Below are positions 804-34,519 of a stretch of DNA of 34,941 nucleotides, one piece after another; positions within the stretch are counted from its first letter, which is position 1, and every line of letters begins with the position of its first letter. This DNA is from Kitasatospora sp. MBT63. GTDB taxonomy: Bacteria; Actinomycetota; Actinomycetes; Streptomycetales; Streptomycetaceae. A model generated the notes under the pieces. The model worked only from the letters and a program-made list of their open reading frames with translations, searched no databases and was not told the origin of the DNA. The translations under genes and the position numbers were made by a program. The stretch is from contig NZ_JAIZ01000412.1 of the NCBI RefSeq assembly GCF_000710465.2, forward strand, positions 22,642 through 57,582. The letters run 5' to 3'.

Positions 804-2417
<1,614 letters not shown>

Positions 2418-2438
2418 CCGGCTCTCCAGGAAGGTGGG

Positions 2439-2472
2439 GCCCGGGGCCGCGTCTCCCTACGCGGCCCCGGGC
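2439..2472 (-). terminator. Strong intercistronic hairpin between aceA and aceB
   Basis: Perfect 13-bp inverted repeat: arm GCCCGGGGCCGCG at 2439-2451, 8-nt loop, and its exact complement at 2460-2472. It ends 22 bp before the aceB start and has no T-tract. A second stem with one mismatch (GGGCCCCGT against ACGGGACCC, roughly 2487-2510) lies nearer the aceA stop. The pair could be a partial terminator, an RNA-stability element, or a brake on aceB expression; the sequence alone does not decide. Confidence 0.6.
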
Positions 2473-2566
2473 GGTGGTGGCCTGCGGGCCCCGTCCCTCA
2501 ACGGGACCCCGGGCGAAGGTCCGGGGCGGCCGGGCGGCGGTGGGGGCGCCGGCCGGCCGGGTTCGG

Positions 2567-3859
2567 TCAGTGGAACTGCTCGGCCTCGGTGGAGCCGGTC
2601 AGGGCGAGCGTCTCGGCGTTCGGGTTGAGCGCGGTGCTCACCTGGTCGAAGTAGCCGGTGCCGACCTCGCGCTGGTGCTTGACGGCGGTGTAGCCGTCCG
2701 GGACGGCCGCGAACTCGGCCTCCTGGAGGTCTACGTAGGCGGTCATGCCGCTCTCCGCGTAGCCCTTGGCGAGCTGGAACATCGAGTGGTTGAGCGCGTG
2801 GAAGCCCGCCAGCGTGATGAACTGGAACCGGTACCCCATCGCGCCCAACTCCCGCTGGAACTTGGCGATCTGGTCGTCGTCCAGAGCCGCCTTCCAGTTG
2901 AACGACGGCGAGCAGTTGTAGGCCAGCATCTTGTCCGGGTACTCGGCCTTGACGGCCTCGGCGAACTCCCGGGCCTGCGCGAGGTCCGGGGTACCGGTCT
3001 CGACCCAGATCAGGTCGGCGTACGGCGCGAACGCCAGGCCGCGGGAGATCACCGGCGCCATGCCCGGCTCGACCCGGTAGAAGCCCTCGGCGGTCCGCTC
3101 GCCGGTGCAGAACCGGGCGTCGCGCTCGTCGACGTCGGTGGTCAGCAGGTTGGCGGCGAGCGCGTCGGTGCGCGCCACGACGACGGTCGGCACGTCGGCG
3201 ATGTCCGCCGCCAGCCGGGCCGCGTTCAGGGTCCGGATGTGCTGGGCGGTGGGCACCAGCACCTTGCCGCCCAGGTGGCCGCACTTCTTCTCGGAGGCCA
3301 GCTGGTCCTCGTAGTGGATGCCCGCCGCACCGGCCGCGATCATGCCCTTGGTCAGCTCGAAGGCGTTCAGCGGGCCGCCGAACCCGGCCTCCGCGTCCGC
3401 GACGATCGGCACCAGCCAGTCGGGCCCGTCGTTGCCCTCGGCGGCGTCGATCCCGTCGGCCCGCAGCAGCGCGTTGTTGATCCGGCGCACCACCTGCGGA
3501 ACGGAGTTGGCCGGGTACAGGCTCTGGTCCGGGTAGGTCTGCCCGGCCTGGTTGGCGTCCGCGGCGACCTGCCAGCCGGAAAGGTAGATCGCCTGCAGGC
3601 CGGCCTTCACCATCTGTACGGCCTGACCTCCGGTCAGCGCACCCAGCGCGTGGACGTAGTCCCGCTCGTGCAGCTGCGACCACAGCCGCTCGGCGCCGCG
3701 CCGGGCCAGGGTGTGCTCCTCGCGGACGGTGCCCGACAGGCGCACCACGTCCGCCGCGGTGAAGGTCCGCTCGATGCCCGCCCAGCGGGGGTCGGACGCC
3801 CACCGGGCGGCCAGCCGCGCCGCCTGCTGCTCCTGCTGCTGCCGAACCGACTGCGTCAT
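2567..3859 (-). CDS. aceA: Isocitrate lyase
   Basis: Cleaves isocitrate to glyoxylate and succinate, the entry step of the glyoxylate bypass. The 430-residue length fits the short actinobacterial ICL1 class. The active-site signature [11 protein letters not shown] with the catalytic cysteine lies near residue 190. The family blocks [22 protein letters not shown] and the metal-binding DAEAGFGG are also present. I chose the ATG at 3859 ([12 protein letters not shown]) because GGGAGCAG precedes it; the frame stays open for 114 more codons upstream, but that stretch runs through the promoter and the divergent regulator start and does not look coding. The adjacent scfR-like gene and shared repeats imply induction on acetate or fatty acids. 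Very secure call. Confidence 0.97.
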
Positions 3860-4090
3860 GGGTCTGCTCCCGAGAGTGCTGTTGCCAAGGGTGTGATGCA
3901 CCTCACCGAGGGGGTGCGCGGGCGGCCGGACGGCGCCGGGCGGCGGTACGGGACCGCGGGACGTGGTCGCCCAGGAAACCGAACCAGCTTCACTGACCTG
4001 GCAGTTATCCGTTTCCGAGGGCGCCTTCCGGCCGCACCACCGACTGTGCCACCCGGCGGTGCGGGCCGTCACCGATGGACCGGTGCCAAC

Positions 4091-4130
4091 TTCTGCGAAT
4101 CGCTGCGGCCGATTCTGCGAAGGCTGCGAA
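4091..4130. promoter_or_regulatory. Candidate RamB/ScfR operators in the aceA-regulator intergenic region
   Basis: TTCTGCGAA occurs at 4091-4099 and again at 4113-4121, followed directly by GGCTGCGAA at 4122-4130; a weaker CTGCGG lies at 4103-4108. TTCTGCGAA contains the dyad TTC-N3-GAA. RamB of Corynebacterium recognises a motif ending in TTTGCAAA, which TTCTGCGAA resembles with GC-rich substitutions. The cluster sits just upstream of a possible -10 (TAGGCT, 4154-4159) for the regulator and about 230 bp upstream of aceA. Autoregulation plus control of aceA is inferred, not shown. Confidence 0.55.
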
Positions 4131-4199
4131 GGCCCGGCGGGGCGTTCCCCCGTTAGGCTGCCGCACCAGACGGGCTCGACCGGACCGGGGAGTGACACC

Positions 4200-5603
4200 A
4201 TGGCGAAGGCTTTCGCGGGCGCCCGGCTGCGCCGCCTCCGCGAGGACCGCGGCCTCAGCCAGGCCGCCCTGGCACGGCTGCTCGAACTCTCACCCAGCTA
4301 CCTCAACCAGCTGGAACACGACGCCCGCCCGCTCACCGTGCCGGTCCTGCTGCGGCTCACCGAGGCGTTCGGCGTCGAGGCCGGCTACTTCGCCCCGCCC
4401 GACAGTGCGCGGCTCACCGCCGAACTGCGCGACTCCCTCGGCGAGGAACTGGCGGCGGGCCGGATCACCCCGGGCGACCTCGACGAGGTCGCCGCCCGCC
4501 TGCCCGCCGTCGCCCGGCTGCTCACCGACCTGGCCCGCGGACGCCGGGACACCGCCGAGCAACTGGCCGTCCTCGCCGGGGACCGCGGCGCCGAGGCCGA
4601 CGCCCGCACCCCGCACGAACAGGTCCGCGAGTTCTTCTACCGCCGCCAGAACTACCTCCACGAACTCGACACCGCGGCAGAGGAGTTGGCCGAGACGATC
4701 GAGCTGAGACGCGGCGGGGTGCGGGAGGCCCTGGCCGAACGGCTGGCCGACGGGCACCGGGTCCGGATCGCCACCGGGAGCGGGGACCTGCACCGGTACG
4801 ACGGGCGGACCCGGACCCTGCACCTGTCCGACCGGCTGCGACCCGGCCAGCAGGCCTTCCGGATGGCCACCCAGCTGGCCTACCTGGAACACGACTCCCT
4901 GCTGTCCGAACTCGCCGCCCAGGACAGCCCCGAGGGCTCCACCGCCCGCTCGCTCACCCGGATCGGCCTCGCGAACTACTTCGCCGCCGCCCTCGTCCTG
5001 CCCTACCGGGTCTTCCACGACGCGGCGGAGGCCGCCCGGTACGACATCGAGCACCTCGCCGACCACTTCGGCGTCGGCTATGAGACGGTCTGCCACCGGC
5101 TCTCCACCCTCCAGCGCCCCGGCCGGCGCGGGGTGCCGTTCTCCTTCGTCCGGGTCGACCGCGCCGGGAACGTCTCGAAGCGGCAGTCCGCCACGGCCTT
5201 CCACTTCTCCCGCACCGGCGGCACCTGCCCGCTGTGGAACGTCTACGACGCCTTCGCCGCGCCGGGCCGGGTCCACGTCCAGGTCGCCGCCATGCCGGAC
5301 GGCCGCCGCTACCTGTGGACCGCCCGCGCCGTCACCCGCTCACCCGGCGGCTGGGGCCGGCCCGGCAAGACCTTCGCCGTCGGCCTGGGCTGCGAGCTCC
5401 GGCACGCCGGCCGACTGGTGTACGCGGCCGGCCTGGACCTCGGCGACGAAGCCGCCGCCACCCCGATCGGCCTCGGCTGCAAGGTCTGCGAACGCCCCGC
5501 CTGCCCCCAGCGCTCCGCCCCCGCCATCGGCCGGGCCCTGGCCGTCGACGAGCACACCAGCACCTTCGTCCCGTACGCCGTGCGCACCGATCCGCAACCG
5601 TAG
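4200..5603 (+). CDS. ScfR/RamB-family regulator of acetate or short-chain fatty acyl metabolism
   Basis: A 467-residue protein with an XRE-type helix-turn-helix at residues 9-65 ([22 protein letters not shown]). A central region resembling the IrrE/ImmA fold follows, without an HEXXH metal motif. The C-terminal domain has the cysteine cluster [15 protein letters not shown] (CxxCxxxxC) typical of short-chain fatty acyl regulators. In Corynebacterium and Mycobacterium the homologue RamB controls aceA and aceB. Here the gene is divergent from aceA, with direct repeats between them, which supports the same role. I chose the ATG at 4200, right before the helix-turn-helix; the frame is open upstream to 3963 but that part covers the operator region. 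The effector (acyl-CoA?) is not deducible from sequence. Confidence 0.9.
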
Positions 5604-8025: not shown

Positions 8026-8988
8026 TTACCCGGTGCCGGTGCCGGTGCCGGTGCCGGTGGGGGCCGGCGCCGGCGCCGGTTCCCGTGGTTCCTCGCCGAG
8101 TCCGCGCAGGGTGTCCAGGGCGGTGCGCGGGTAGGGGCCCGTGCAGCCGGGGCAGGCGGCGGAGGCGGCCGGGTCGTTGAGCCAGTACCCGTCGACCGTG
8201 GAGCGTACGGCACGGGCGGCCCGGTCGATCTGTGCGGCGCCGACGGCCCGGCCCGAAGGGTTGGTGCTCAGGCCGGCGAGCACCTTGATCCGGGGATTGG
8301 CGCGGCGGGCCTGGGCGGTGGCGGCCGCCACGAAGGAGGCGAACAGCGTCGGGTTGTCCTCCGCGCCCTGGGCCTGGAGGTCCAGCACATCGGCGTCGCG
8401 TGCGATCTCGCCGGCCAGCCCGAGCTTCAGGAAGGTGTCGAAGGCGCCGCCGGCGGTGCCCGGGCGCAGTGCCTCGACGAGATCGGTGGCAGGTGCGGCG
8501 ATGAACAGCAGGTGGTGACGGTGGACCAGGTCCGCGGCCATCCGGTCGTAGCGGACCGGGTCGGCCTGCTCCGCGGCCGGGGTCTGCGGCCAGTGTTCGT
8601 TGTCGTAGAGCACCGCTCGGATCCGCGGGTCCAGCCGGTTGCCGGTCAGGGCCGACTCGAGGGCGGTGTAGCTGTCGAAACTGGCGGTCGGTGTGGAGCG
8701 CCAGCCGTCGGGGACGGCCCAGTTGCCGTCCCCGGTGAGCACGTAGGCGTCCGGTGTGTCGAAGGACCGGGCGGTGGTCCGGCCGGTGGGGTCGGCGGCC
8801 AGCAGCCTTCCCAGGGTCCGGCCGCTGATGATCCAGGAACCGGCCGCCGCGGTGGCGCCCGGTGCGGGGGAGGGCTTCGGCCGCGGCCGGGCCGGCGTGC
8901 TCGTCCGGTCGGCGACCACGAGGTACCCGGCCAGCAGCACCGCGGCCGCGGCGAGCAGGGCTGCCGCCGACGCGTACGGGCGCTTCAC
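8026..8988 (-). CDS. Membrane-anchored extracytoplasmic protein, possible TIM-barrel hydrolase-like fold
   Basis: A 320-residue protein starting at GTG 8988, whose GTGA overlaps the stop of the upstream glycosyltransferase by 4 bp, a sign of translational coupling. One hydrophobic N-terminal segment (residues 7-27) has no lipobox cysteine, so it is a signal anchor. An Arg/Pro/Ala-rich spacer follows, then a folded domain. Regularly spaced strand-like blocks (IRAVLYDNEHW, LFIAAPATDLV, ADVLDLQAQGAED, KVLAGLSTNP, VDGYWLND) suggest a (beta/alpha)8 barrel of glycoside-hydrolase type, with acidic residues at DNEHW and QAQGAED as catalytic candidates. The tail is (AP)n followed by (TG)5. Coupling to a polysaccharide synthase suggests a role in trimming or handling the glycan outside the membrane; this is inference. 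Confidence 0.75.
   Translation of the reverse strand: MKRPYASAAALLAAAAVLLAGYLVVADRTSTPARPRPKPSPAPGATAAAGSWIISGRTLGRLLAADPTGRTTARSFDTPDAYVLTGDGNWAVPDGWRSTPTASFDSYTALESALTGNRLDPRIRAVLYDNEHWPQTPAAEQADPVRYDRMAADLVHRHHLLFIAAPATDLVEALRPGTAGGAFDTFLKLGLAGEIARDADVLDLQAQGAEDNPTLFASFVAAATAQARRANPRIKVLAGLSTNPSGRAVGAAQIDRAARAVRSTVDGYWLNDPAASAACPGCTGPYPRTALDTLRGLGEEPREPAPAPAPTGTGTGTGTG
8032..8059. repeat. Hexanucleotide repeat encoding the Thr-Gly tail
   Basis: About 4.5 tandem copies of GGTGCC at the 3' end of the membrane-anchored protein gene, read on the minus strand as alternating Gly-Thr codons, next to a GC-rich Ala-Pro stretch. Changes in unit number would lengthen or shorten the C-terminal tail in frame. 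Confidence 0.75.
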
Positions 8989-10934
8989 CGGGCCGGCCCG
9001 GCGGGCTGGGCGTGGAGCACGTCGGCGCGCGCGGGTGCGCGCAGCCCGGCCGGTGGCCGGACCGGACGGACCCCGCAGGCCAGCAGCGACTCCAGCTGGA
9101 AGAACCGTTTCAGGAAGGCGAACGCCGGCCACAGCGGCGCCCAGAGCAGCAGCCGTGCCCGGCGGTAGTAGAGGACGAGGCAGATCCGCGGTACCAGCGC
9201 CGGCAGCTGCGCGAGCAGGAAGACGACGGCGAAACGGGCCAGGTTGTGCCGGGGCAGCGGCTGCAGGGTGCAGTGCAGCACGGTCAGCACCAGGACGAAG
9301 AAGTGGATCGGTGAGAGCAGCCTGCCGCCGGCGGCCCTCGGCAGCTGGAACCAGAACCGGGGGCCGGGCGCGCCCCGGCCGAACGGGGTGAAGCGGGCGA
9401 AGTTCATCAGGTTGCCCAGCCCCCAGCGGAATCGCTGGACCCGCAGCTGGCCGAGTTTCACGGGTACGTCCTCGTAGGAGACCGTGTGCGGGTCCATCAC
9501 CACCCGCCAGCCCGACCTCGCGAGCGCGCAGGTGAATTCGGCGTCCTCGCCGAACATGCCGTCGACGAAGCCGCCGAGCTCCACGGCCGCCTCGCGGCGG
9601 AAGCCGCAGAAGGTGCCGGGGACGCACGGCACGGCGTCCACGGTGCTCAGTGCGGCCAGGCTGAAGCCGTACGTGAACAGCTGCTCCATCGCCCGCATCC
9701 GGTCGATCCAGGTGGTGTACGGCTCCTTGGGCAGGGTGAGCGCCCCGACCACGCCGACCCGCGGGTCGGCGAGGAAGCGCGGGACCGACCGGGCGAAGGC
9801 GTCGGGGTCGAGTGCGCAGTCGGCGTCGACGCGGTAGACGAACTCCGCCGTGCAGCGTTCCAGCGCCAGGTTCAGTGCCCTGGCCTTGCCCGCGTGGGGG
9901 CCCTGGATCACCTCGCCGGTGGCGCTGGTGAAGGCCGCGACGGCCGCCTCGGCCAGCGCCCGGGTGCCGTCGGTGGAGCCGTCGTCGCACAGGACGACCC
10001 GCACCGGCCCGCCGTACGCCGCCGCGGCGCGGTCGATCGAGCGCAGCAGCCGTTCGATCACCGAGGCCTCGTTGTAGGCGGGCACGATCACCTCGACGGC
10101 GGGGCGGTCGTTGGCGGGCCGGTGCGATCGGCGCGGGCCGAGCAGGCCGACGAGTGCGAGCAGGATCAGCATCACGTCGAAGACGGAGAAGCGGAGGCCG
10201 GCCAGGACGAGGAACCCCGCCAGCGGATGGCCGGCGACCTGTCGCAGCAGAACCAGTGCCGCAGCGCCGACCAGTGCCAGCGCGGCGAGCAGGCAGAGCG
10301 TCAGGACCGCACTGTCTGGCCAGTCTCGGCGCCGCCGCGCTGGCAGCGGGGTCGGGCGCGGCAGCCGGAAGGTGGTGAAGGCGAGCCGGTAGACCAGCAG
10401 GTAGCCGAGGGTGGACTGGAGGACGAGGGCGACCAGCGGGACGGGGCCGAGCGGCAGCCCGGTCGCCGTCGCGAGCAGCGCGGCGCAGCACTCGGCGAGG
10501 ACGGACATCCCGAGGAACACCGGGGCGTGCGCCAGGATCATCAGCCGGCGGCCGGGGGTGGCCGGAAGGACCACCGCGACGGTGATCAGGTAGCCGACCA
10601 CGGCGGCCGGTACGAGTGGCGGGAGGCTGTGCGCGTACGCGGCGGCCAGGTGGGGATCGCCGTCCGCGGCGGACAGGACGTCGGCGACCAGTGAGTGGTA
10701 CGCCTGGTCGAGCCGGGGGTGGCGGACGGCGACGATCGCCGTGCTGACGGCGGCGGCGACCGACAGGAAGGCCAGCGCGCGCGGCAGGGACGGGCGGCGG
10801 AACGGCGGCAGCCGCACCACCCGGCCGGAGCCGCGGTCGGAGTCGTCGAAGCGCCGGGCCAGCGGCCAGCGGACCGCCAGGAGCAGCAGGAGGGTGTCGG
10901 CGACGAGCAGTGCGACGACGTCCGGGTGCAGCAT
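8985..10934 (-). CDS. Membrane-embedded processive family 2 glycosyltransferase
   Basis: A 649-residue protein. The N-terminal ~280 residues hold several hydrophobic helices. The GT2 domain spans about 280-510, starting VEVIVPAYNEAS, with the family residues in order: CDDGSTDGT (near 316), VDADCALD (near 370), CGFRREAA, FGEDAEFT (general base) and QRFRW near 500. QxxRW is the hallmark of processive synthases such as cellulose, chitin, hyaluronan and poly-GlcNAc synthases. More membrane helices follow. It should polymerise a nucleotide sugar in the cytosol and thread the chain through its own channel. Its stop overlaps the start of the membrane-anchored protein gene. GGAGG precedes the ATG at 10934. 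The sugar is not predictable; the divergent SQD1-like gene hints at an unusual one. Confidence 0.9.
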   Translation of the reverse strand: MLHPDVVALLVADTLLLLLAVRWPLARRFDDSDRGSGRVVRLPPFRRPSLPRALAFLSVAAAVSTAIVAVRHPRLDQAYHSLVADVLSAADGDPHLAAAYAHSLPPLVPAAVVGYLITVAVVLPATPGRRLMILAHAPVFLGMSVLAECCAALLATATGLPLGPVPLVALVLQSTLGYLLVYRLAFTTFRLPRPTPLPARRRRDWPDSAVLTLCLLAALALVGAAALVLLRQVAGHPLAGFLVLAGLRFSVFDVMLILLALVGLLGPRRSHRPANDRPAVEVIVPAYNEASVIERLLRSIDRAAAAYGGPVRVVLCDDGSTDGTRALAEAAVAAFTSATGEVIQGPHAGKARALNLALERCTAEFVYRVDADCALDPDAFARSVPRFLADPRVGVVGALTLPKEPYTTWIDRMRAMEQLFTYGFSLAALSTVDAVPCVPGTFCGFRREAAVELGGFVDGMFGEDAEFTCALARSGWRVVMDPHTVSYEDVPVKLGQLRVQRFRWGLGNLMNFARFTPFGRGAPGPRFWFQLPRAAGGRLLSPIHFFVLVLTVLHCTLQPLPRHNLARFAVVFLLAQLPALVPRICLVLYYRRARLLLWAPLWPAFAFLKRFFQLESLLACGVRPVRPPAGLRAPARADVLHAQPAGPAR

Positions 10935-11604
10935 CGCTCAGCCCTCCGTCCCGTGACGGCCGGTCCGAGGCGGACGGGCCGGACGAGCTGGGTGTTCGTC
11001 CACGATCCCGACGAAACACGCCTGTGGTCCGGCGGTGGCCTCGCCGACGAACGTACACGGAATTCCCAATTCCACGACCCGGTCCTTTCGCGGCGCGAAC
11101 CGGATCAGGTATACACGATCTCTTCACGTGGCGTCAGGGTCGCGCAGGAGATTTTGTGGATCCATGACGAAGCGCGGCGGGCGGGGATGTTGAATTCGCA
11201 ACAGGGGGTCCGGGGTGGGCGACTTGCCGGTGGCCGGCCCTGTCGAGCCAGCGGTTCAGGTTTTTGAGCCCGCCTCACATAACTGCCCTGACCTGGGGTG
11301 ATGTGCCTCCTGGCGGGCCCGGGCGGGCCCGGTCCGCGGCTGACGTGTACTGGACATGTCACATCCGCTGTGGCAAGGTCGTGCAGCATCCGGCGGCCAC
11401 CTCCCCATGGCCTGCCGCCTCACGGCCGCACTCACCTGCGCCGCGTCACACTTCCGGTAGGTTTTCGGTCCTTTCCGGCGCCCCCGATGCCCCACGCGCC
11501 GGACCGGCCTGCAAGTACTTCGGGCACCTTCTTGCTCCGCATTCACGTGAGACATTTCCGCATGGCACTGCCCTGTTCTCCGATTTCCGTAAGGGAGTAG
11601 GCAC
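10935..11604. other. 670-bp divergent intergenic region
   Basis: No gene is seen here. The stretch is less GC-rich than its surroundings and carries palindromes: GGAATT-CCC-AATTCC at 11059-11073, GTTG-N6-CAAC at 11189-11202 and GACATGTC at 11353-11360. GGGCCCGG-type repeats lie near 11320. A TAGGTT at 11456-11461 could be a -10 for the rightward genes, with no clear -35. It probably holds both divergent promoters and regulator sites for the polysaccharide locus. The unusual length suggests elaborate control or long 5' leaders. Confidence 0.5.
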
Positions 11605-12834
11605 ATGCATGTCCTGATTCTGGGCGGCGACGGATTCTGCGGCTGGCCGACCGCCCTCCACCTCTCCGACCGCGGCCACCAGGTGACCATCGTCGACAAC
11701 CTCAGCCGCCGGGCCATCGACCTCGAGCTGGAGGCCGAGTCGGTCACACCCATCCGGCCCATCGGCGAGCGCCTGCGGGCCTGGCGCGAGGTGTCGGGCC
11801 GGGAGATCGGCTTCGTCCGGCTGGACCTCGCCACCGAGTACGAGCGGCTGGCCGCGCTGCTCGCCGGAGTGCGCCCCGACGCCGTCGTGCACTTCGCCGA
11901 ACAGCGCGCCGCGCCGTACTCCATGCGCTCGGTCCCCGCCAAGCGCTACACCGTCGACAACAACGTCCGCGCCACCCACAACCTGCTGGTCGCACTGGTC
12001 GCCACCGGCACCGACGCGGCCTTGGTGCACCTCGGCACCATGGGCGTCTACGGGTACGGCTGGTCCGGATCCGCCCCCATCCCGGAGGGCTACCTGACCG
12101 TCAAGGTCCCCACCCCGGAAGGCGACCTGGAACGCCGGATCCTCCATCCGGCGAACCCCGGCTCCGTGTACCACCTGACCAAGACCCTCGACCAGCTGAT
12201 GTTCTCCTTCTACGCGGCCAACGACGGGCTGCGGATCACCGACCTGCACCAGGGCATCGTCTGGGGCACCCAGACCGCCCAGACCGCCCGCGACGAACGG
12301 CTGGTCAACCGCTTCGACTACGACGGCGACTACGGCACCGTGCTCAACCGCTTCCTCGCCCAGGCCGCGATCGGCCACCCGCTCACCGTGCACGGCACCG
12401 GCGGCCAGACCCGCGCGTTCATCCACCTCCAGGACACCGTGCGATGTATCGAGATCGCCCTCGCCAACCCGCCCGCCGCCGGCGACCGGCCCAAGGTCTT
12501 CAACCAGGTCACCGAGGTCCACCGGGTACGCGACCTGGCCAAGCTCGTCAGCAACCTGACCGGGGTGGAGACGGCCAACCTGCCCAACCCGAGGAAGGAG
12601 GCGGTCGAGAACGAACTCCGGGTGAGCAACGACCAGTTCCTCGCGCTCGGACTGCAGCCGACCAGCCTCAGCGAGGGACTGCTGGACGAGTGCACCAACA
12701 TCGCGGGCCGCTACCGCTCCCGGATCGACCCTCGCAGGATCATCGCCCGCTCGGTCTGGCGTCCCGGCATGGAGACCGCCGACGACCTGCTCACCGGCCT
12801 GCCGGACGCCCCGCCCTCCCGCATCCCGTCATAG
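11605..12834 (+). CDS. SQD1/Agl3-like UDP-sulfoquinovose synthase family protein
   Basis: A 409-residue extended short-chain dehydrogenase. The Rossmann loop is GGDGFCGWPTALHLS, and a chain of blocks follows that is typical of plant and cyanobacterial SQD1/SqdB: IVDNLSRR, AESVTPI, VVHFAEQRAAPYSM, NNVRATHNLL, HLGTMGVYGYG, YHLTK (catalytic Tyr and Lys), GVVYG-like GIVWGTQT, NRFDYDGDYGTVLNRF, GHPLTVHGTGGQTR and NPRKEAVENE. SQD1 enzymes convert UDP-glucose and sulfite to UDP-sulfoquinovose using bound NAD. The match is far closer than to generic sugar epimerases. GGGAG precedes the ATG at 11605. It heads a rightward operon with HlyD-like and PP2C-like genes and faces a GT2 synthase. The exact product needs biochemical proof; no sulfolipid synthase is nearby. 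Confidence 0.85.
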   Translation: MHVLILGGDGFCGWPTALHLSDRGHQVTIVDNLSRRAIDLELEAESVTPIRPIGERLRAWREVSGREIGFVRLDLATEYERLAALLAGVRPDAVVHFAEQRAAPYSMRSVPAKRYTVDNNVRATHNLLVALVATGTDAALVHLGTMGVYGYGWSGSAPIPEGYLTVKVPTPEGDLERRILHPANPGSVYHLTKTLDQLMFSFYAANDGLRITDLHQGIVWGTQTAQTARDERLVNRFDYDGDYGTVLNRFLAQAAIGHPLTVHGTGGQTRAFIHLQDTVRCIEIALANPPAAGDRPKVFNQVTEVHRVRDLAKLVSNLTGVETANLPNPRKEAVENELRVSNDQFLALGLQPTSLSEGLLDECTNIAGRYRSRIDPRRIIARSVWRPGMETADDLLTGLPDAPPSRIPS

Positions 12835-12921
12835 CGCCGGCCCGCGCCGCACCCGCCGCGCCGACGGCGGAGCACCCCCGGAAGCACGACGACCGGGACG
12901 AACCCATGAAGGAGGCAGGGA

Positions 12922-14379
12922 ATGATGGCCCGTCCCTCGCGCCCCGTGCGCGGGATGAACGCCGCGCTCGCCGGCGGCGAGGCAGGCGTCGGAGAGATCA
13001 GGCCCGCCCGCTCCCCGATGGGCCTGTGGAGAGTGGCCCTGGCCCTGGTCCTCGCGGTCGCCGCCACCTTCGCCGGCATCCGGACCTACCAGGCGGTCGC
13101 GTCCCGGCCGGTGACCTTCAGCGGTCAGGTCACCCCGGCCCACGCGTACTACCTCAACTTCCCGAACACCGGCACCGTCGAGACCCTCACCGTGAAGCCC
13201 GGCGACCACGTCACGGCAGGTCAGGTGCTCGCCACCCAGGTGAGCAGCGTGGCGGCCGCCAACCTCGCCGCGGCCCAGGCCGCCGTCGACGCCGAAACCG
13301 CGCTGCTCGCCGAGGACAGCAACCCGGCCACCACCGCCGACCGGCAGGCCCGGGGCCAACTGGACATCGCCAAGGCCGAGGCAGCCGCCGACAGCACCCG
13401 CAGCGCCCTCGCGCTGGCCCAGGTCAGCACGGAGAACGCCATCGCCGCACAGAACAGCGTGATCTCCGCCGACCAGGCCGCGCTGGACGACGAGACCGCA
13501 CGCCTCACCCGGTCCTGCCCGGCCACCGCGGCCGCCGCCTCCCCGGTCGCCGCCTCCGGTGAACCGAACGTCACGGCATCCGCTCCACCCGCCGCCGCCT
13601 CACCCGCCGCCACCTCACCCACCACCACAACCGCGCCCGCCCAGCAGCAGTCCTGCCAGAGCCTGCAGAGCCAGATCGACAAGGACACGGCCAGACTCGC
13701 CCAGGCCAGGGCCCAACTCGGCACCCTGCAGTCCACCGGGCAGGCCCACGCGCAGCAGCTCCAGGCGCGCCTGACACAGAACCAGTCCGTCCTCCAGGCG
13801 GCCCGGACCACGGTGGCCTCCCAGGGCGCTCCGCTCACCCCGGCCGCCATCGCCCAGGCCCGGTCCCGGCTGGCCTCCGCACAGGCCCAACTCGCCGCCG
13901 ACCAGCTCGCCCTGAGACAGACCACGATCACCGCCCCGGCCGACGGTACGGTCGCCGGGACCGCGGGTGCCGCCGGTGACACCGTCGGCCCCCAAGGCGT
14001 GCACACCTACGCCGGCCCGGCCGCGCAGTCCGGCACCCTGGTCGACCAGCTGCCCGGCATCCAGCTCTTCGTCCCCACCCCCGCCCCGGGCACCAACCAG
14101 GTCGCCGGCTCCGGCTACACCGCGCTGGTCACACTCCACTCCGGACCGCTCAGCGTGACCGCCCAGCTGCCCGAATCCCGGATCGCCGACGTACGCGAGG
14201 GCCGGGCCGCCACCGTCACCGTCCCCGCCACCGGCCGTACCGTCACAGGACGGGTCGACCACATCCTGTTGCAGCCCGCCCGGGTGCCGGGCGCGACCTA
14301 CTACAACGTCACGATCGGCCTGGACGACCAGCAGGAAACCCTCATGCCCGGCATGTCCGCGGACGTGGCACTGCTCTGA
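12922..14379 (+). CDS. HlyD-like membrane-fusion/adaptor protein
   Basis: A 485-residue protein with a single N-terminal membrane helix (about 33-55). A split biotinyl-lipoyl-like domain follows: half one is GTVETLTVKPGDHVTAGQVL and half two is TTITAPADGTVAGTAGAAGDTV. Between them lies a long Ala/Gln-rich alpha-helical hairpin. Its tip is a low-complexity Ala/Pro/Ser/Thr insert flanked by Cys199 and Cys245, which could form a disulfide. A beta-barrel domain closes the protein (SRIADVREGRAATVTVPATGR). AAGGAGG lies 6 nt before ATG 12922. Such adaptors usually pair with ABC or RND pumps, but none is encoded here. It may instead guide the product of the divergent GT2 synthase through the thick wall, an inference from context. 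Confidence 0.85.
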   Translation: MMARPSRPVRGMNAALAGGEAGVGEIRPARSPMGLWRVALALVLAVAATFAGIRTYQAVASRPVTFSGQVTPAHAYYLNFPNTGTVETLTVKPGDHVTAGQVLATQVSSVAAANLAAAQAAVDAETALLAEDSNPATTADRQARGQLDIAKAEAAADSTRSALALAQVSTENAIAAQNSVISADQAALDDETARLTRSCPATAAAASPVAASGEPNVTASAPPAAASPAATSPTTTTAPAQQQSCQSLQSQIDKDTARLAQARAQLGTLQSTGQAHAQQLQARLTQNQSVLQAARTTVASQGAPLTPAAIAQARSRLASAQAQLAADQLALRQTTITAPADGTVAGTAGAAGDTVGPQGVHTYAGPAAQSGTLVDQLPGIQLFVPTPAPGTNQVAGSGYTALVTLHSGPLSVTAQLPESRIADVREGRAATVTVPATGRTVTGRVDHILLQPARVPGATYYNVTIGLDDQQETLMPGMSADVALL

Positions 14380-14387
14380 AGGAGACC

Positions 14388-15272
14388 ATGAGCATCACCT
14401 CGGCCAGTCTGCCCGGCCGCCCCGACATCCCCAACCAGGACCTCCTGCTCACCGCCCCCGGCGTCCTCGTCCTGCTCGACGGCGCCGGCGGGCCAAGCGA
14501 GGACGGCGGCGGCTGCCGTCACGGAGTCCACTGGTACGTACGGCAGTTGGGTAGCCGGCTGCTCACCGGCCTGCTCACCGCGGATCGGCCGGTCGCCGAC
14601 CTGCTGGCCGACGCCATCGATGCCGTCGCCCACAGCCACCGCTCCACCTGCGACCTGCGCCATCCCGGAACCCCCTCCTCCACCGTCGCGATCGTCCGCC
14701 AGCGCGGGGAGGACGTCGACCACCTCGTCCTGCACGACTCCACCCTCCTCCTCACCCGCGCCGACGGGTCCGGGACGGAGACGGTCAGCGACCGCCGCCT
14801 GCACCACATCCCCGAGCTCCACCCGCTGCGCTCCGCCGCCCACCGCTGCGCCCTAGGCACCGACCGGCACGCCGCTGCCCGAAAGGCATACATCGCAGCG
14901 GAGTTGGGCCACCGAAACGCGGCCGGGGGCTACTGGGTGGCCGGCAGCGACCCGCGCGCCGCCACGCACGCCCTCACCGGCACCACCCCCGCCGCAGCCC
15001 TGCGCTCGGTGTCCCTGCTCAGTGACGGCGCCGCCGACCACGTCGACACCTACCACCTCGCAACCTGGCCCGAGACCGTCGCCCTCCTCTCCCTCGACGG
15101 CCCCGCCACGCTCCTGGCCGCCGTACGGGCGGCCGAGCACTCCGACCCGCGTGGCCGTCGCTGGCCCCGCCTCAAACCGCACGACGACGCGACCGCCGCG
15201 CACTGGACGGATCCGGCGGCCACCGGGGCCGCCGCCGAGCTGCTCCGACCGGTGACAGTTCGCCACCGGTAG
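14388..15272 (+). CDS. PP2C-like (PPM family) phosphatase domain protein
   Basis: A 294-residue soluble protein whose order of motifs follows PPM phosphatases: an N-terminal PNQD in place of the usual N-x-D motif, VLVLLDGAGG (metal-binding DGxGG), SSTVAIVR, SLLSDGAADHV (SDG) and a C-terminal HDDATAA (DD-x-T/S). Metal-binding aspartates are therefore retained and activity is plausible. The ATG at 14388 is eight bases after the HlyD-like stop, with GGAG between, so the genes are cotranscribed. It may act on a Ser/Thr kinase target that controls the polysaccharide machinery. No kinase is encoded in this window, and the substrate is unknown. Confidence 0.75.
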   Translation: MSITSASLPGRPDIPNQDLLLTAPGVLVLLDGAGGPSEDGGGCRHGVHWYVRQLGSRLLTGLLTADRPVADLLADAIDAVAHSHRSTCDLRHPGTPSSTVAIVRQRGEDVDHLVLHDSTLLLTRADGSGTETVSDRRLHHIPELHPLRSAAHRCALGTDRHAAARKAYIAAELGHRNAAGGYWVAGSDPRAATHALTGTTPAAALRSVSLLSDGAADHVDTYHLATWPETVALLSLDGPATLLAAVRAAEHSDPRGRRWPRLKPHDDATAAHWTDPAATGAAAELLRPVTVRHR

Positions 15273-31373: not shown

Positions 31374-32354
31374 TCAGCGGGTGGGGACGGCGAGCAGCAG
31401 CGCGAAGCGGGCGGACCGGTCGGTCCACCAGTGGCTGACGGTGAAGCCGCCGGCGGCGAGCTCCGCGGTGAGTGCCTCGCGGCGGAACTTGCCGGAGATC
31501 TCGGTGCGCACGCTCTCCTCGGCCGCGAGTTCGAGGACCAGGTCCACGGCCGGGATCTTGACCGTCTGGGCGGTACGCGAGCGCAGGTGCATCTCGATCC
31601 GCTCCGCGGCCTCGTTCCACACCGCCACGTGGTCGAACGCGGCGGGGTCGAAGTCGGCGCCCAGTTCGCGGTTGAGGACGTTCAGGACGTTCTTGTTGAA
31701 GGCCGCGGTCACGCCTCGGCCGTCGTCGTAGGCGCGGATCAGCGTTCCGGGGTCCTTGACCAGGTCGGCTCCGAGCAGCAGGGCGTCGTCGCCGCTGAGT
31801 GCGTGCCGCAGCGTGGTGTAGAAGGACCGGCGTTGGGCGGGGTCCAGGTTGCCGATGGTGCTGCCGAGGAAGGCCAGCAGGCGGGGACCCGGTTCGTCGC
31901 CGAGGGCCAGGTCGTGCTCGAAGTCGGTGACGGTGGCGACGACTTGCAGGTCGGGGTAGTCGCGGCAGAGTGCCTCCCCGGCCTCGGCGAGCGCGGAGTC
32001 GCTGACGTCCAGTGGCGCGTAGCGCTGCAGGGTCCCGGCGGCGGTGAGCGCGTCCAGGAGCAGGCGGGTCTTGCGGGAGGAGCCCGAGCCGAGCTCGACC
32101 AGGGTGCGGGCCCGGGTGAGTGCGGCGATCTCGGGTGCGCGCCGGGCGAGGATCTCCTGCTCGGCGCGGGTCGGGTAGTACTCGGGCAGGCGGGTGATCT
32201 GCTCGAAGAGTTCGCTGCCGTGGGCGTCGTAGAACCACTTGGACGGCAGCGTCCTGGGTGCGGCGGACAGGCCGTGCAGCACGTCGGCGCGCAGCGTGGT
32301 GGCGAGGTGGTCCTGGGGGAGCCGGTGGTCGAGCGTGAAGCGGTTCGTCATCAT
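31374..32354 (-). CDS. egtD: EgtD module with its own possible internal start
   Basis: Alternative reading of the 3' half of the fused frame. Two tandem ATGs (32354 and 32351) follow GAGGAG by ten bases, the normal place and form of an egtD start. This would give a free 326- or 325-residue histidine methyltransferase, full length for the family. It uses three SAM to trimethylate the alpha-amino group of histidine. Because no stop separates it from EgtC, this free form would arise only by internal initiation. Confidence 0.6.
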   Translation of the reverse strand: MMTNRFTLDHRLPQDHLATTLRADVLHGLSAAPRTLPSKWFYDAHGSELFEQITRLPEYYPTRAEQEILARRAPEIAALTRARTLVELGSGSSRKTRLLLDALTAAGTLQRYAPLDVSDSALAEAGEALCRDYPDLQVVATVTDFEHDLALGDEPGPRLLAFLGSTIGNLDPAQRRSFYTTLRHALSGDDALLLGADLVKDPGTLIRAYDDGRGVTAAFNKNVLNVLNRELGADFDPAAFDHVAVWNEAAERIEMHLRSRTAQTVKIPAVDLVLELAAEESVRTEISGKFRREALTAELAAGGFTVSHWWTDRSARFALLLAVPTR

Positions 32355-33173
32355 CGTGCTGCGCTCCTCGGTGGTGCGGTTCTCGGTGGTGCGGTTGTCG
32401 GTGGTGCGGGACGGGAGTGGTGCGGCGGGCCGCAGCGGGGTCACCCGGACGCGGCCGGGGACGGCGACCAGCAGGGAGTGGTCGGGAACCTCCCGCCAGG
32501 CCCCTTCGCCGTCCGGTTCGGAGGCGACGAGCACGCTGTCGGGGGCCGTCCGGTACCAGAGCGTGTCGCCGTGGCGGGTGGCGGTGATCGTGCGGCCGTC
32601 GGTGAGCAGGAGGTTGAGCCGGGCGTCGGGGCGGGCGGCCGCGGTCTGCCGTACCACGGCTGCCAGTGCCGCGGCGGCCGCTTCGCCGCGGCGCAGCCGG
32701 TGGCAGAGGACCGCCCACAGCAGGGCGGAGTCACTGCGTGCCTCCAGCGCGAGCAGGTCCTTGGGGCCGAGCCCGCACTCCGCTCCCAGTGCGGCGGGCA
32801 GCCTGGTCCAGTCGGGGACGGCCCCGTTGTGGCTGAACAGCCACGGCCCGTCGCGGAAGGGGGCGGCGGCCGCTTCGTCGTGGGCGGTTCCCTCGGTGGC
32901 CGAGCGGACGGCGGCCAGCAGCGCCCGGGTGCGGACGGTGCGGGCGAGGTCGGGCAGGTTGGGGTCGGCCCAGATCGGGACCGCGCGCCGGTAGCGGGCC
33001 GGTGGCTCGTCCGGGTCCGGCGGGTACCAGCCGAGGCCGAACCCGTCCGCGTTCACGGTGCCGTGCCGCTGCCGCCGGGGCGCCCAGGACTGTGCGTACA
33101 GGCCGTGCGGCGGGCCGAGCAGCAGGGCGGCGGCGCCGGTCTCCGGTCCGAGGTAGGCGAGATGGCGGCACAT
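31374..33173 (-). CDS. egtCD: EgtC-EgtD fusion: gamma-glutamyl hercynylcysteine sulfoxide amidohydrolase joined to histidine N-alpha-methyltransferase
   Basis: One uninterrupted 599-codon frame. Residues 1-250 are EgtC, a class II glutamine-amidotransferase fold with the nucleophile Cys2 (MCRHLAYLG) and blocks VNADGFGLGWYPPDPDEPP and LFSHNGAVPDWTRLP. Residues 256-270 are three repeats, RTTDN-RTTEN-RTTEE. Residues 274-599 are EgtD, with SKWFYDAHGSELFEQITRLP, the SAM motif LVELGSGSSRKTRLLLDAL and FLGSTIGNLDP. EgtD makes hercynine (first step) and EgtC removes glutamate later in ergothioneine synthesis. EgtC's ATG shares its A with the EgtB stop (TGATG). A GAGGAG site before the internal ATGs at 32354/32351 means separate EgtD could also be made. 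egtE is not in view. Confidence 0.85.
   Translation of the reverse strand: MCRHLAYLGPETGAAALLLGPPHGLYAQSWAPRRQRHGTVNADGFGLGWYPPDPDEPPARYRRAVPIWADPNLPDLARTVRTRALLAAVRSATEGTAHDEAAAAPFRDGPWLFSHNGAVPDWTRLPAALGAECGLGPKDLLALEARSDSALLWAVLCHRLRRGEAAAAALAAVVRQTAAARPDARLNLLLTDGRTITATRHGDTLWYRTAPDSVLVASEPDGEGAWREVPDHSLLVAVPGRVRVTPLRPAAPLPSRTTDNRTTENRTTEERSTMMTNRFTLDHRLPQDHLATTLRADVLHGLSAAPRTLPSKWFYDAHGSELFEQITRLPEYYPTRAEQEILARRAPEIAALTRARTLVELGSGSSRKTRLLLDALTAAGTLQRYAPLDVSDSALAEAGEALCRDYPDLQVVATVTDFEHDLALGDEPGPRLLAFLGSTIGNLDPAQRRSFYTTLRHALSGDDALLLGADLVKDPGTLIRAYDDGRGVTAAFNKNVLNVLNRELGADFDPAAFDHVAVWNEAAERIEMHLRSRTAQTVKIPAVDLVLELAAEESVRTEISGKFRREALTAELAAGGFTVSHWWTDRSARFALLLAVPTR
32364..32408. repeat. 15-bp tandem repeat at the EgtC-EgtD junction
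   Basis: Three 15-bp units, minus strand CGCACCACCGACAAC, CGCACCACCGAGAAC and CGCACCACCGAGGAG. The last one also forms the ribosome site of the internal egtD start. Unit length is a multiple of three, so expansion keeps the reading frame open. Confidence 0.9.
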
Positions 33174-34519
33174 CAGCGTGCCTCGCCGGGGGTGACGTCG
33201 CGGGCGGTGCGGAAACCGCTGAAGATCTGCCGGCGGATCGGGTGGTCCCAGTTGCGGAAGGTGCCCCGGCAGGCGACCGGGTCCACGCCGAACGAACCGC
33301 CGCGCAGCACCTTGTAGTCCGGGCCGAAGAACACCTCGGAGTACTCCGGGTAGGGGAAGGCGGTGAAGCCCGGGTAGGGCAGGAAGTCGCTGCTGGTCCA
33401 CTCCCAGACGTCGCCGATCAGCTGCCGTGCGCCGGACGGCGCGGCGCCCGCCGGGTAGCTGCCGACCGGGGCGGGCTGCAGGTGGCGTTGGCCGAGGTTG
33501 GCGTGGTCCGGGGCCGGGTCGGCGTCGCCCCAGGGGTGGCGGCGGGAACGGCCGGTGGCCGGGTCGTGGCGGGCGGCCTTCTCCCACTCGGCCTCGGTCG
33601 GCAGTCGCCGGCCGGCCCAGTGGGCGTAGGCCTCGGCCTCGTACCAGCACACGTGCAGGACCGGCTCCGACGGTGGCACCGGTTCGGTGCGGCCGAAGCG
33701 GCGGCGCAGCCAGGCCCGCCCGTCCCGCTGCCAGAAGAGCGGTGCTTCCAGGCCGGCCCGCTGTCGGTGCGCCCAGCCCTGCGGGCTCCACCGGCGCGGG
33801 TCGGCGTAGCCGCCGTCCTCGATGAACTCCTGGTAGTCGGCGTTGCTCACCGGGACGGTGTCCAGCCAGAACGGTGCCAGGTCCACGGTGTGGGCGGGCC
33901 GTTCGTTGTCCAGTGCCCACGGATCGGTGTCGGTGCCCATGGTGAACGGGCCGCCGGGCACCAGCACCTCGCGCGGCAGGGCGGTCGCGTCGGGGCCGGC
34001 GGGCGGTGGCGGCGGGGCGTCCAGGACGGCGGGCCCGGAGCGCAGCTGGTGGGTGGCCAGCATGGTCTCGGCGTGCTGCTGCTCGTGCTGGGCGACCATC
34101 CCGAACACGAATCCCCTTGCGAGCAGCGGGTCCTGCCCGTCGGCCGAACGGCCGTCCTCCGTATCGAACACCGCGGCGTCCAGGACCTCCAGGGCCCGCT
34201 CGCGGACCTGGCGGAGGTACCGGCGGGCAGCGTCCGGCGGCAGCAGCGGGAGCGCGGGACGCGCGGCCCGCGGATGCCGGAAGGCGTCGTAGAGCCGGTC
34301 GAGGTCGGGGCGCAGCGCGGGGAGTCGGCCTGCCTCGCGGACCAGCCAGATCTCCTCCTGGTTCCCGACGTGGGCCAGGTCCCAGACCAGCGGTGACATC
34401 AACGGGGAGTGCTGGCGCAGCAGTTCGTCCTCGTCCAGGCAGTCCGTCAGGGCGAGTGTCCGCTGCCGGGAGGAGGCCAGGGCGGTGGTGGCGTCGCCGG
34501 GGGTGGGGTGGGCGTTCAC
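33173..34519 (-). CDS. egtB: Ergothioneine synthase EgtB (iron-dependent sulfoxide synthase)
   Basis: A 448-residue protein that oxidatively couples gamma-glutamylcysteine to hercynine with non-haem iron. The N-terminal DinB-like half (1-165) has HVGNQEE and the iron triad HEQQHAE (HX3HXE) near 146. The C-terminal half is an FGE-sulfatase/C-type lectin fold (about 190-445): PGGPFTMGTDTDPWALDNERP, WYEAEAYAHWAGRRLPTEAEWE, WEWTSSDF, RGGSFG and the terminal GFRTAR. GTG 34519 overlaps the egtA stop by 4 bp (GTGA), the start used because the domain begins right there. Secure call. Confidence 0.96.
   Translation of the reverse strand: MNAHPTPGDATTALASSRQRTLALTDCLDEDELLRQHSPLMSPLVWDLAHVGNQEEIWLVREAGRLPALRPDLDRLYDAFRHPRAARPALPLLPPDAARRYLRQVRERALEVLDAAVFDTEDGRSADGQDPLLARGFVFGMVAQHEQQHAETMLATHQLRSGPAVLDAPPPPPAGPDATALPREVLVPGGPFTMGTDTDPWALDNERPAHTVDLAPFWLDTVPVSNADYQEFIEDGGYADPRRWSPQGWAHRQRAGLEAPLFWQRDGRAWLRRRFGRTEPVPPSEPVLHVCWYEAEAYAHWAGRRLPTEAEWEKAARHDPATGRSRRHPWGDADPAPDHANLGQRHLQPAPVGSYPAGAAPSGARQLIGDVWEWTSSDFLPYPGFTAFPYPEYSEVFFGPDYKVLRGGSFGVDPVACRGTFRNWDHPIRRQIFSGFRTARDVTPGEAR

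Follow-up and report, generated by a model that had tools for sequence, protein, structure and literature searches.

A candidate locus for a sulfoquinovose-containing exopolysaccharide, with a SqdB-type enzyme, a GT2 synthase, and a HlyD-like protein, in Kitasatospora sp. MBT63

Introduction

Sulfoquinovose is mainly known from a photosynthetic membrane lipid, where it forms the head group, and from archaeal protein glycans. Here, we analyze a locus in Kitasatospora sp. MBT63 in which a gene for a SqdB-type uridine diphosphate (UDP)-sulfoquinovose synthase lies beside genes for a GT2 glycan synthase, a HlyD-like membrane-fusion protein, and a secreted protein. The locus occupies positions 8026 to 15272 of a 34,941-nucleotide stretch (positions 22,642 to 57,582 of contig NZ_JAIZ01000412.1), hereafter called the window, from a 9.85-Mb genome assembled in 845 contigs. 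Judging by its gene content, the locus probably serves the synthase-dependent production and export of an exopolysaccharide that contains sulfoquinovose.

Three described systems come closest. UDP-sulfoquinovose synthases carry the signatures [ST]MG and Yx3K (PMC8987622). In Agl3 of Sulfolobus acidocaldarius, alanine mutants of His95, Arg101, Met145, Tyr182, and Lys186 are inactive, and the E147A mutant retains 12% activity (PMC4388408). Deletion of sqdB from the sqdBDC operon of Rhodobacter sphaeroides abolishes sulfoquinovosyl diacylglycerol (PMC11346425). The third system is the cyanobacterial cellulose module, composed of XcsA, the HlyD-like XcsB, and the endoglucanase XcsC (PMC12430437). 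Among the matches listed in the literature searched (open-license PMC, abstract openings), no sulfoquinovose polysaccharide locus is described.

Results

The gene at 11605 to 12834 (+) encodes a 409-amino-acid protein in which a profile search recognizes an NAD-dependent epimerase domain. It matches Arabidopsis SQD1 at full length (residues 2 to 387; E 5e-97) and is 65 to 68% identical to SqdB-like proteins of Sinorhizobium meliloti (65%), Marinovum, and Palleronia. Its motifs HFAEQR, TMGVYG, and YHLTK, compared by eye, keep the five Agl3-essential residues (His, Arg, Met, Tyr, and Lys). A plain epimerase such as GalE was rejected because of the full-length similarity to SQD1 and SqdB. Together with the kept residues, this similarity agrees with an earlier, sequence-only reading of the locus, in which the protein would do more than simple epimerization.

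The residue that follows TMG separates two groups of these enzymes. It is Val in all 11 carriers of the locus in the family sample described below, as well as in SqdB-like proteins of S. meliloti, Marinovum, Palleronia, and Rhodococcus. In the first three, a GT8 gene (SqdD-like) and an epimerase-like gene (SqdC-like) come next after the SqdB gene; these two are mutually related across the records and reproduce the sqdBDC layout. Because the S. meliloti and Rhodobacterales proteins have Val, a Glu at this position marks the SQD1/Agl3 branch and not the whole family. A quick tree of 98 rows, with a long-branch warning for rows outside the SqdB branch, places 91 TMGVYG rows on one side of a branch with a support of 99, while SQD1 and two other TMGEYG rows stand apart. 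The remaining four rows match neither pattern, and one of them lies inside the TMGVYG side. By sequence, the window enzyme thus belongs to the UDP-sulfoquinovose synthases of the bacterial SqdB branch. The earlier label "SQD1-like" holds for the family, but the protein is SqdB-type and not plant-SQD1-type. That the Glu-to-Val change makes the enzyme defective was rejected, since this change runs through the whole branch, S. meliloti and sqdBDC-type neighborhoods included.

The gene at 8985 to 10934 (-) encodes a GT2 protein of 649 amino acids (PF13641, E 2.6e-30). It carries DDGS, DAD, GED, and QRFRW, and hydropathy indicates nine hydrophobic segments, located on both sides of the glycosyltransferase domain. 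The order of D, DxD, GED, and QxxRW between membrane segments is that of BcsA/PgaC-like enzymes and points to a processive synthase. Named synthase equivalogs (PgaC, CelA, NodC, and others) do not claim the protein, as the best 25 of 30 NCBIfam rows all score far below cut-off.

The distribution of both genes was determined in a family sample of 200 genomes, drawn evenly and including the window genome. The SqdB query finds 13 genomes at E<=1e-30, which leaves 11 after removal of two outsiders with TMGEYG. The GT2 query, at E<=1e-60, finds the identical 11 genomes. Eight of these have the GT2 type of the window (71 to 74% identity in the seven others) and three have a second type at 41 to 43%. 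The carriers span two genera, and this kinship inflates the significance of the pattern. One carrier genome, G074, has a completeness of 76% and an SqdB frame that is interrupted close to its start. The SqdB-type gene and the GT2 gene co-occur more often than by chance.

Nine of the 11 loci have a cassette of cysH and cysD between the SqdB and GT2 genes, joined by cysN (fragmentary in G074). In three loci, the HlyD gene likewise lies between the two, and five loci encode a binding protein, an ATPase, and a permease that resemble SsuABC. CysH turns activated sulfate into sulfite. At E<=1e-40, cysH is present in all 200 genomes, with two copies in eight, all of them carriers; in G074, the ninth genome with the cassette, only the locus cysH was seen. 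No second copy was found in the other 189 genomes, which have one each (at most 13 best candidates scored per genome). The association between locus cysH and carrier status has a hypergeometric probability of 5e-14 when kinship is ignored. All nine locus CysH proteins contain a CC motif and five match the GCEPC pattern, cysteines that we take to be linked to direct reduction of adenosine 5'-phosphosulfate (APS).

The cassette was also searched for the remaining steps of sulfate assimilation, with the housekeeping proteins of the window genome as queries and their own contig as the positive control. No relative of APS kinase or sulfite reductase was found in the stretches of the 11 carriers and two outsiders (20 to 42.5 kb), nor in the records of Kutzneria sp. 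744 (L044), Catenulispora rubra (L045), and an Acidimicrobiaceae metagenome-assembled genome (MAG; L086). The same search recovered cysD in nine carriers, L044, and L045. The absence of these relatives suggests that the cassette ends at sulfite, the co-substrate of SqdB, and it resembles a housekeeping operon cut back to that point. One carrier locus, in genome G195, has an extra GalU-like gene (213 bits against an equivalog cut-off of 327), whose predicted product would supply UDP-glucose, the first substrate of SqdB.

Only one cysH was found in the window genome, in a housekeeping cluster on another contig (C251), and the strain would draw its sulfite from there. This cluster includes cysH, cysD, and cysN, after which comes a gene for a binding protein similar, by eye, to the locus type. 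A second cysC-cysD-cysN set on contig C770 was rejected as a locus-type cassette in view of 92 to 93% DNA identity to the housekeeping copy and assembly gaps. This set (L138, L144), with a sulfotransferase-like gene (by eye) nearby, may be a real duplicate or contamination.

Downstream of the SqdB gene, 12922 to 14379 (+) encodes a HlyD-like protein of 485 amino acids with lipoyl and HlyD domains (HlyD_D23 and HlyD_3 matches) and an N-terminal hydrophobic segment at residues 35 to 53. It has no match among PDB sequences at E<=0.001. A HlyD-like gene is present in all 11 carrier loci, eight by likeness to the window protein and three with lower similarity (E 2e-27 to 3e-17 in tblastn with the window protein as query; split in G074). 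In G195, a nonribosomal peptide synthetase-like gene, recognized by eye, lies directly 3' of the HlyD gene (L021, 4897 to 7605).

The gene at 8026 to 8988 (-) encodes a secreted or membrane-anchored protein of 320 amino acids with a single N-terminal hydrophobic segment (residues 8 to 26) and a putative role in glycan hydrolysis or handling. It has no Pfam or NCBIfam family, and PDB sequence matches of the frame 8026 to 9006 appear only at E>0.4. An AlphaFold2 model built from four sequences predicts a TIM-barrel-like core (mean predicted local distance difference test [pLDDT] score, 65.8). Structural matches are TIM barrels with Z scores of up to 13.5, many of them tied and from no single family. 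Because of these ties, no activity was assigned, and the named folds (chitinase, aldolases, triosephosphate isomerase, and others) were left unused.

The TIM-barrel protein is encoded in all eight loci with the GT2 type of the window. The three loci with the other GT2 type, and also Kutzneria sp. 744, have a GH144-like protein instead, so that the GT2 type and the hydrolase type switch jointly. The GH144-like designation comes from a PF10091 match of the protein of one carrier, G058, and PDB relatives of the GH144-like protein include cyclic beta-1,2-glucan synthases. A beta-helix protein is encoded in seven of the 11 loci (PF12708 in the one member profiled). A secreted peptidase-like gene, S53-like by eye, is found at or near the locus in six of the 11 (G058, G050, G074, G054, G062, and G042).

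Beyond the family, the best 80 of 574 relatives in named genomes were retained, many of them on short contigs. Within this set, a GT2 gene related to those of the carriers is present in the records of Kitasatospora sp. MAP5-34 (L043), Kutzneria sp. 744, and the Acidimicrobiaceae MAG. The gene set is comparable in Kutzneria sp. 744 and partly so in the MAG and in C. rubra, where HlyD, cysD, and cysN genes stand on a stretch that soon ends. Two further records (L085 and L104) have cys genes at a greater distance, and L120 shows a weak GT2b match (29.9%, E 9e-7). On a Pelagovum pacificum plasmid (L168, 5001 to 6907), an SqdB-type gene is directly followed by a phosphoadenylyl-sulfate reductase gene, with a glycosyltransferase nearby; by annotation, SqdB and sulfite supply are here joined a further, independent time. 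The SqdB branch is also represented on a Rhodococcus qingshengii plasmid (L143), where the gene is accompanied by those for a SulP anion transporter, a glycosyltransferase, a protein with an alkyl sulfatase domain, and a large hypothetical protein. Further members are encoded in Saccharibacteria-titled MAGs (L088, L089, L090, L092, and L096; 64 to 70%), which is unexpected in reduced genomes.

The sequence-only reading had described the locus as five genes in two divergent units. The open reading frames and an independent gene caller based on third-codon-position GC content select the same five genes at the positions given here. The minus-strand pair overlaps by 4 bp, and the three plus-strand genes are spaced 87 and 8 bp apart. 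The units are separated by 670 bp (10935 to 11604) that hold no cys cassette and no Rfam match to an RNA element. The fifth gene, at 14388 to 15272 (+), encodes a PP2C-like phosphatase of 294 amino acids. Its PP2C_2 match of 24 bits equals the cut-off of 24 exactly, and DGAGG at residue 31, SDGA at 212, and DDAT at 266 are presumably acidic metal motifs. The gene is present in only two of the 11 loci (the window and G195) and was not found in the other carrier stretches; for this reason, all five genes occur together in only two of the 11. What exceeds chance in the family sample is the pair of SqdB-type and GT2 genes, shared by 11 of the 200 genomes. PP2C, which had been counted as part of the set, was rejected as a core component and is regarded as accessory.

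Elsewhere in the window, 31374 to 34519 (-) includes a 599-amino-acid frame that fuses a class-II glutamine amidotransferase to a histidine-specific methyltransferase, beside a formylglycine-generating enzyme-sulfatase/DinB protein. We take this region to be an ergothioneine cluster in which EgtC and EgtD are apparently fused. The genes at 804 to 5603, for malate synthase, isocitrate lyase, and, divergently, a short-chain fatty acyl-CoA regulator, are those of the glyoxylate shunt.

Discussion

Gene content, co-occurrence, the cassette, and the conserved catalytic residues are what we observe; the substrate, the polymer and its linkage, the way in which it is exported, and what the HlyD-like and secreted proteins do are inferred. 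The SqdB-type enzyme would convert UDP-glucose and sulfite to UDP-sulfoquinovose. The membrane GT2 would take this donor, alone or with a second sugar nucleotide, and the chain would be polymerized and extruded through the membrane. The HlyD-like protein may guide the polymer across the cell wall in the manner of cyanobacterial XcsB, and the secreted TIM-barrel protein may trim or handle it, as BcsZ and XcsC do for cellulose. In most relatives, the ATP sulfurylase CysDN and the APS reductase CysH would provide a sulfite supply of their own, and an SsuABC-like importer is often encoded as well. The cassette in nine of 11 loci and the GalU-like gene in G195 favor the earlier proposal of a sulfoquinovose-containing glycan made through GT2 rather than a sulfolipid. 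For HlyD-aided export, also proposed earlier, cyanobacterial XcsB offers a closer precedent.

Several observations weigh against an exopolysaccharide that contains sulfoquinovose. The SqdB-type enzyme scores 319 bits with the UDP-sulfoquinovose synthase model NF041015, far under the equivalog cut-off of 575, and it has Val where Agl3 has Glu147 (TMGVYG instead of TMGEYG). UDP-sulfoquinovose is the presumed donor of the GT2, since sequence cannot give donor specificity, and the GT2 structure model was set aside at a pLDDT of 46. The putative enzymatic role of the secreted protein follows from a generic modeled fold. The cys cassette is not present in the window or in G147, and no cysH was found in the examined stretch of C. 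rubra. In a phylum sample, SqdB relatives occur in 24 of 396 genomes at E<=1e-120 and the GT2 in two of 396 at E<=1e-60, the window being in both. As SqdB mostly occurs without this GT2 across the phylum, it would also serve other pathways. Conversely, a 2.2-Mb genome of the phylum (G278, L145) has a 34% identical GT2 and no SqdB at E<=1e-120. Finally, the review on the XcsAB-TolC export model states that its experimental validation is still lacking (PMC12430437).

Instead of making a free polysaccharide, the GT2 might attach single sulfoquinovose units or short oligosaccharides to a carrier, be it a wall polymer, a protein, or a lipid. Processivity is read from QxxRW and family likeness, and sulfoquinovose is reported in surface-protein glycans of Sulfolobus (PMC9549778, PMC8987622). 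However, the synthase-like layout, with hydrophobic segments on both sides of the glycosyltransferase domain, and the HlyD and secreted hydrolase-like partners, as in XcsABC, make such a transfer unlikely.

A sulfolipid locus would supply UDP-sulfoquinovose for a membrane glycolipid through a transferase encoded elsewhere, with the GT2, HlyD, and secreted proteins as unrelated neighbors. In its favor, SqdB enzymes of the same branch sit in sqdBDC-type operons of S. meliloti and Rhodobacterales, and in Trueperaceae and Citricoccus SqdB lies beside a GT4 gene that we take to be SqdX-like. The window genome encodes two GT4 relatives (37% and 32%) on other contigs. A GT4 like that of L120, which we take to be SqdX-like, is found in 143 of the 200 genomes, the window genome included, which counts against the exopolysaccharide as well. 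Yet these relatives occur in 133 of 189 noncarriers and 10 of 11 carriers, a distribution that does not track SqdB and thus lends no support to a sulfolipid. The GT2 and this SqdB type, on the other hand, share the same 11 genomes, in nine of them with the cys cassette in between. With five query proteins (tblastn, E<=1e-3; the SqdX query is the L120 protein, presumed to be SqdX), SqdD-, SqdC-, and SqdX-like sequences match none of the 11 locus stretches, while five control loci are positive. The sequence-only reading had likewise seen no SqdX or SqdD transferase at the locus, and its absence now extends from the window to the 10 other carrier stretches. A search of the whole window genome for SqdD, without a positive control in that genome, gave no relative. 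We consider a sulfolipid locus distinctly improbable.

Least probable of all, the enzyme could make another UDP-sugar (5,6-ene or 6-deoxy) for a nonsulfonated glycan, with the cys genes serving, for example, O-sulfation: TMGVYG does not have the Glu whose loss leaves Agl3 with 12% activity (PMC4388408), and the NF041015 score is below its cut-off, but the same Val stands in the SqdB-like proteins of S. meliloti and Rhodobacterales. O-sulfation of a glycan requires 3'-phosphoadenosine 5'-phosphosulfate. It is disfavored by the lack of an APS kinase relative in the locus stretches, where sulfotransferases were not searched for.

A sulfoquinovose-containing exopolysaccharide is thus the reading we retain. 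In a bolder and tentative form, which we hold to be possible but somewhat short of even odds, the polysaccharide would be of a kind not described before, consist largely or wholly of sulfoquinovose, and be permanently anionic through C-S bonds, with a dedicated synthase-exporter fed by a duplicated and pruned sulfate-assimilation operon. In soil actinobacteria, any polysaccharide with sulfoquinovose in it would represent a new class of anionic polymer from bacteria and a possible source of environmental sulfoquinovose. It would also be a case in which the duplication and trimming of a primary-metabolism operon seem to serve the delivery of a reactive intermediate, sulfite.

Compared with the housekeeping cluster on C251, the locus cassettes of the relatives share cysH, cysD, and cysN, but have no relative of APS kinase or sulfite reductase. 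Like Agl3, the window enzyme belongs to the UDP-sulfoquinovose synthase family, keeps the essential residues, and would provide UDP-sulfoquinovose for a cell-surface glycan and not for a membrane lipid. It differs in having Val in place of Glu, and Agl3 serves the N-glycan of an S-layer protein instead of a GT2-made polymer. With the sqdBDC operon of R. sphaeroides and S. meliloti, the locus shares the TMGVYG branch, as judged from identities to S. meliloti, Marinovum, and Palleronia and not to R. sphaeroides. Its partners, however, are a GT2, a HlyD-like, and a secreted TIM-barrel protein, and nine of the 11 loci add the sulfite cassette. The host has no outer membrane, unlike cyanobacteria. 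Like XcsA-XcsB-XcsC (PMC12430437), the window locus encodes together a GT2 synthase, a HlyD-like protein, and a secreted protein, which is a hydrolase in the former and putatively hydrolase-like in the latter. The window locus differs in having no PilZ Pfam match, a different putative hydrolase, and a sulfosugar synthase attached.

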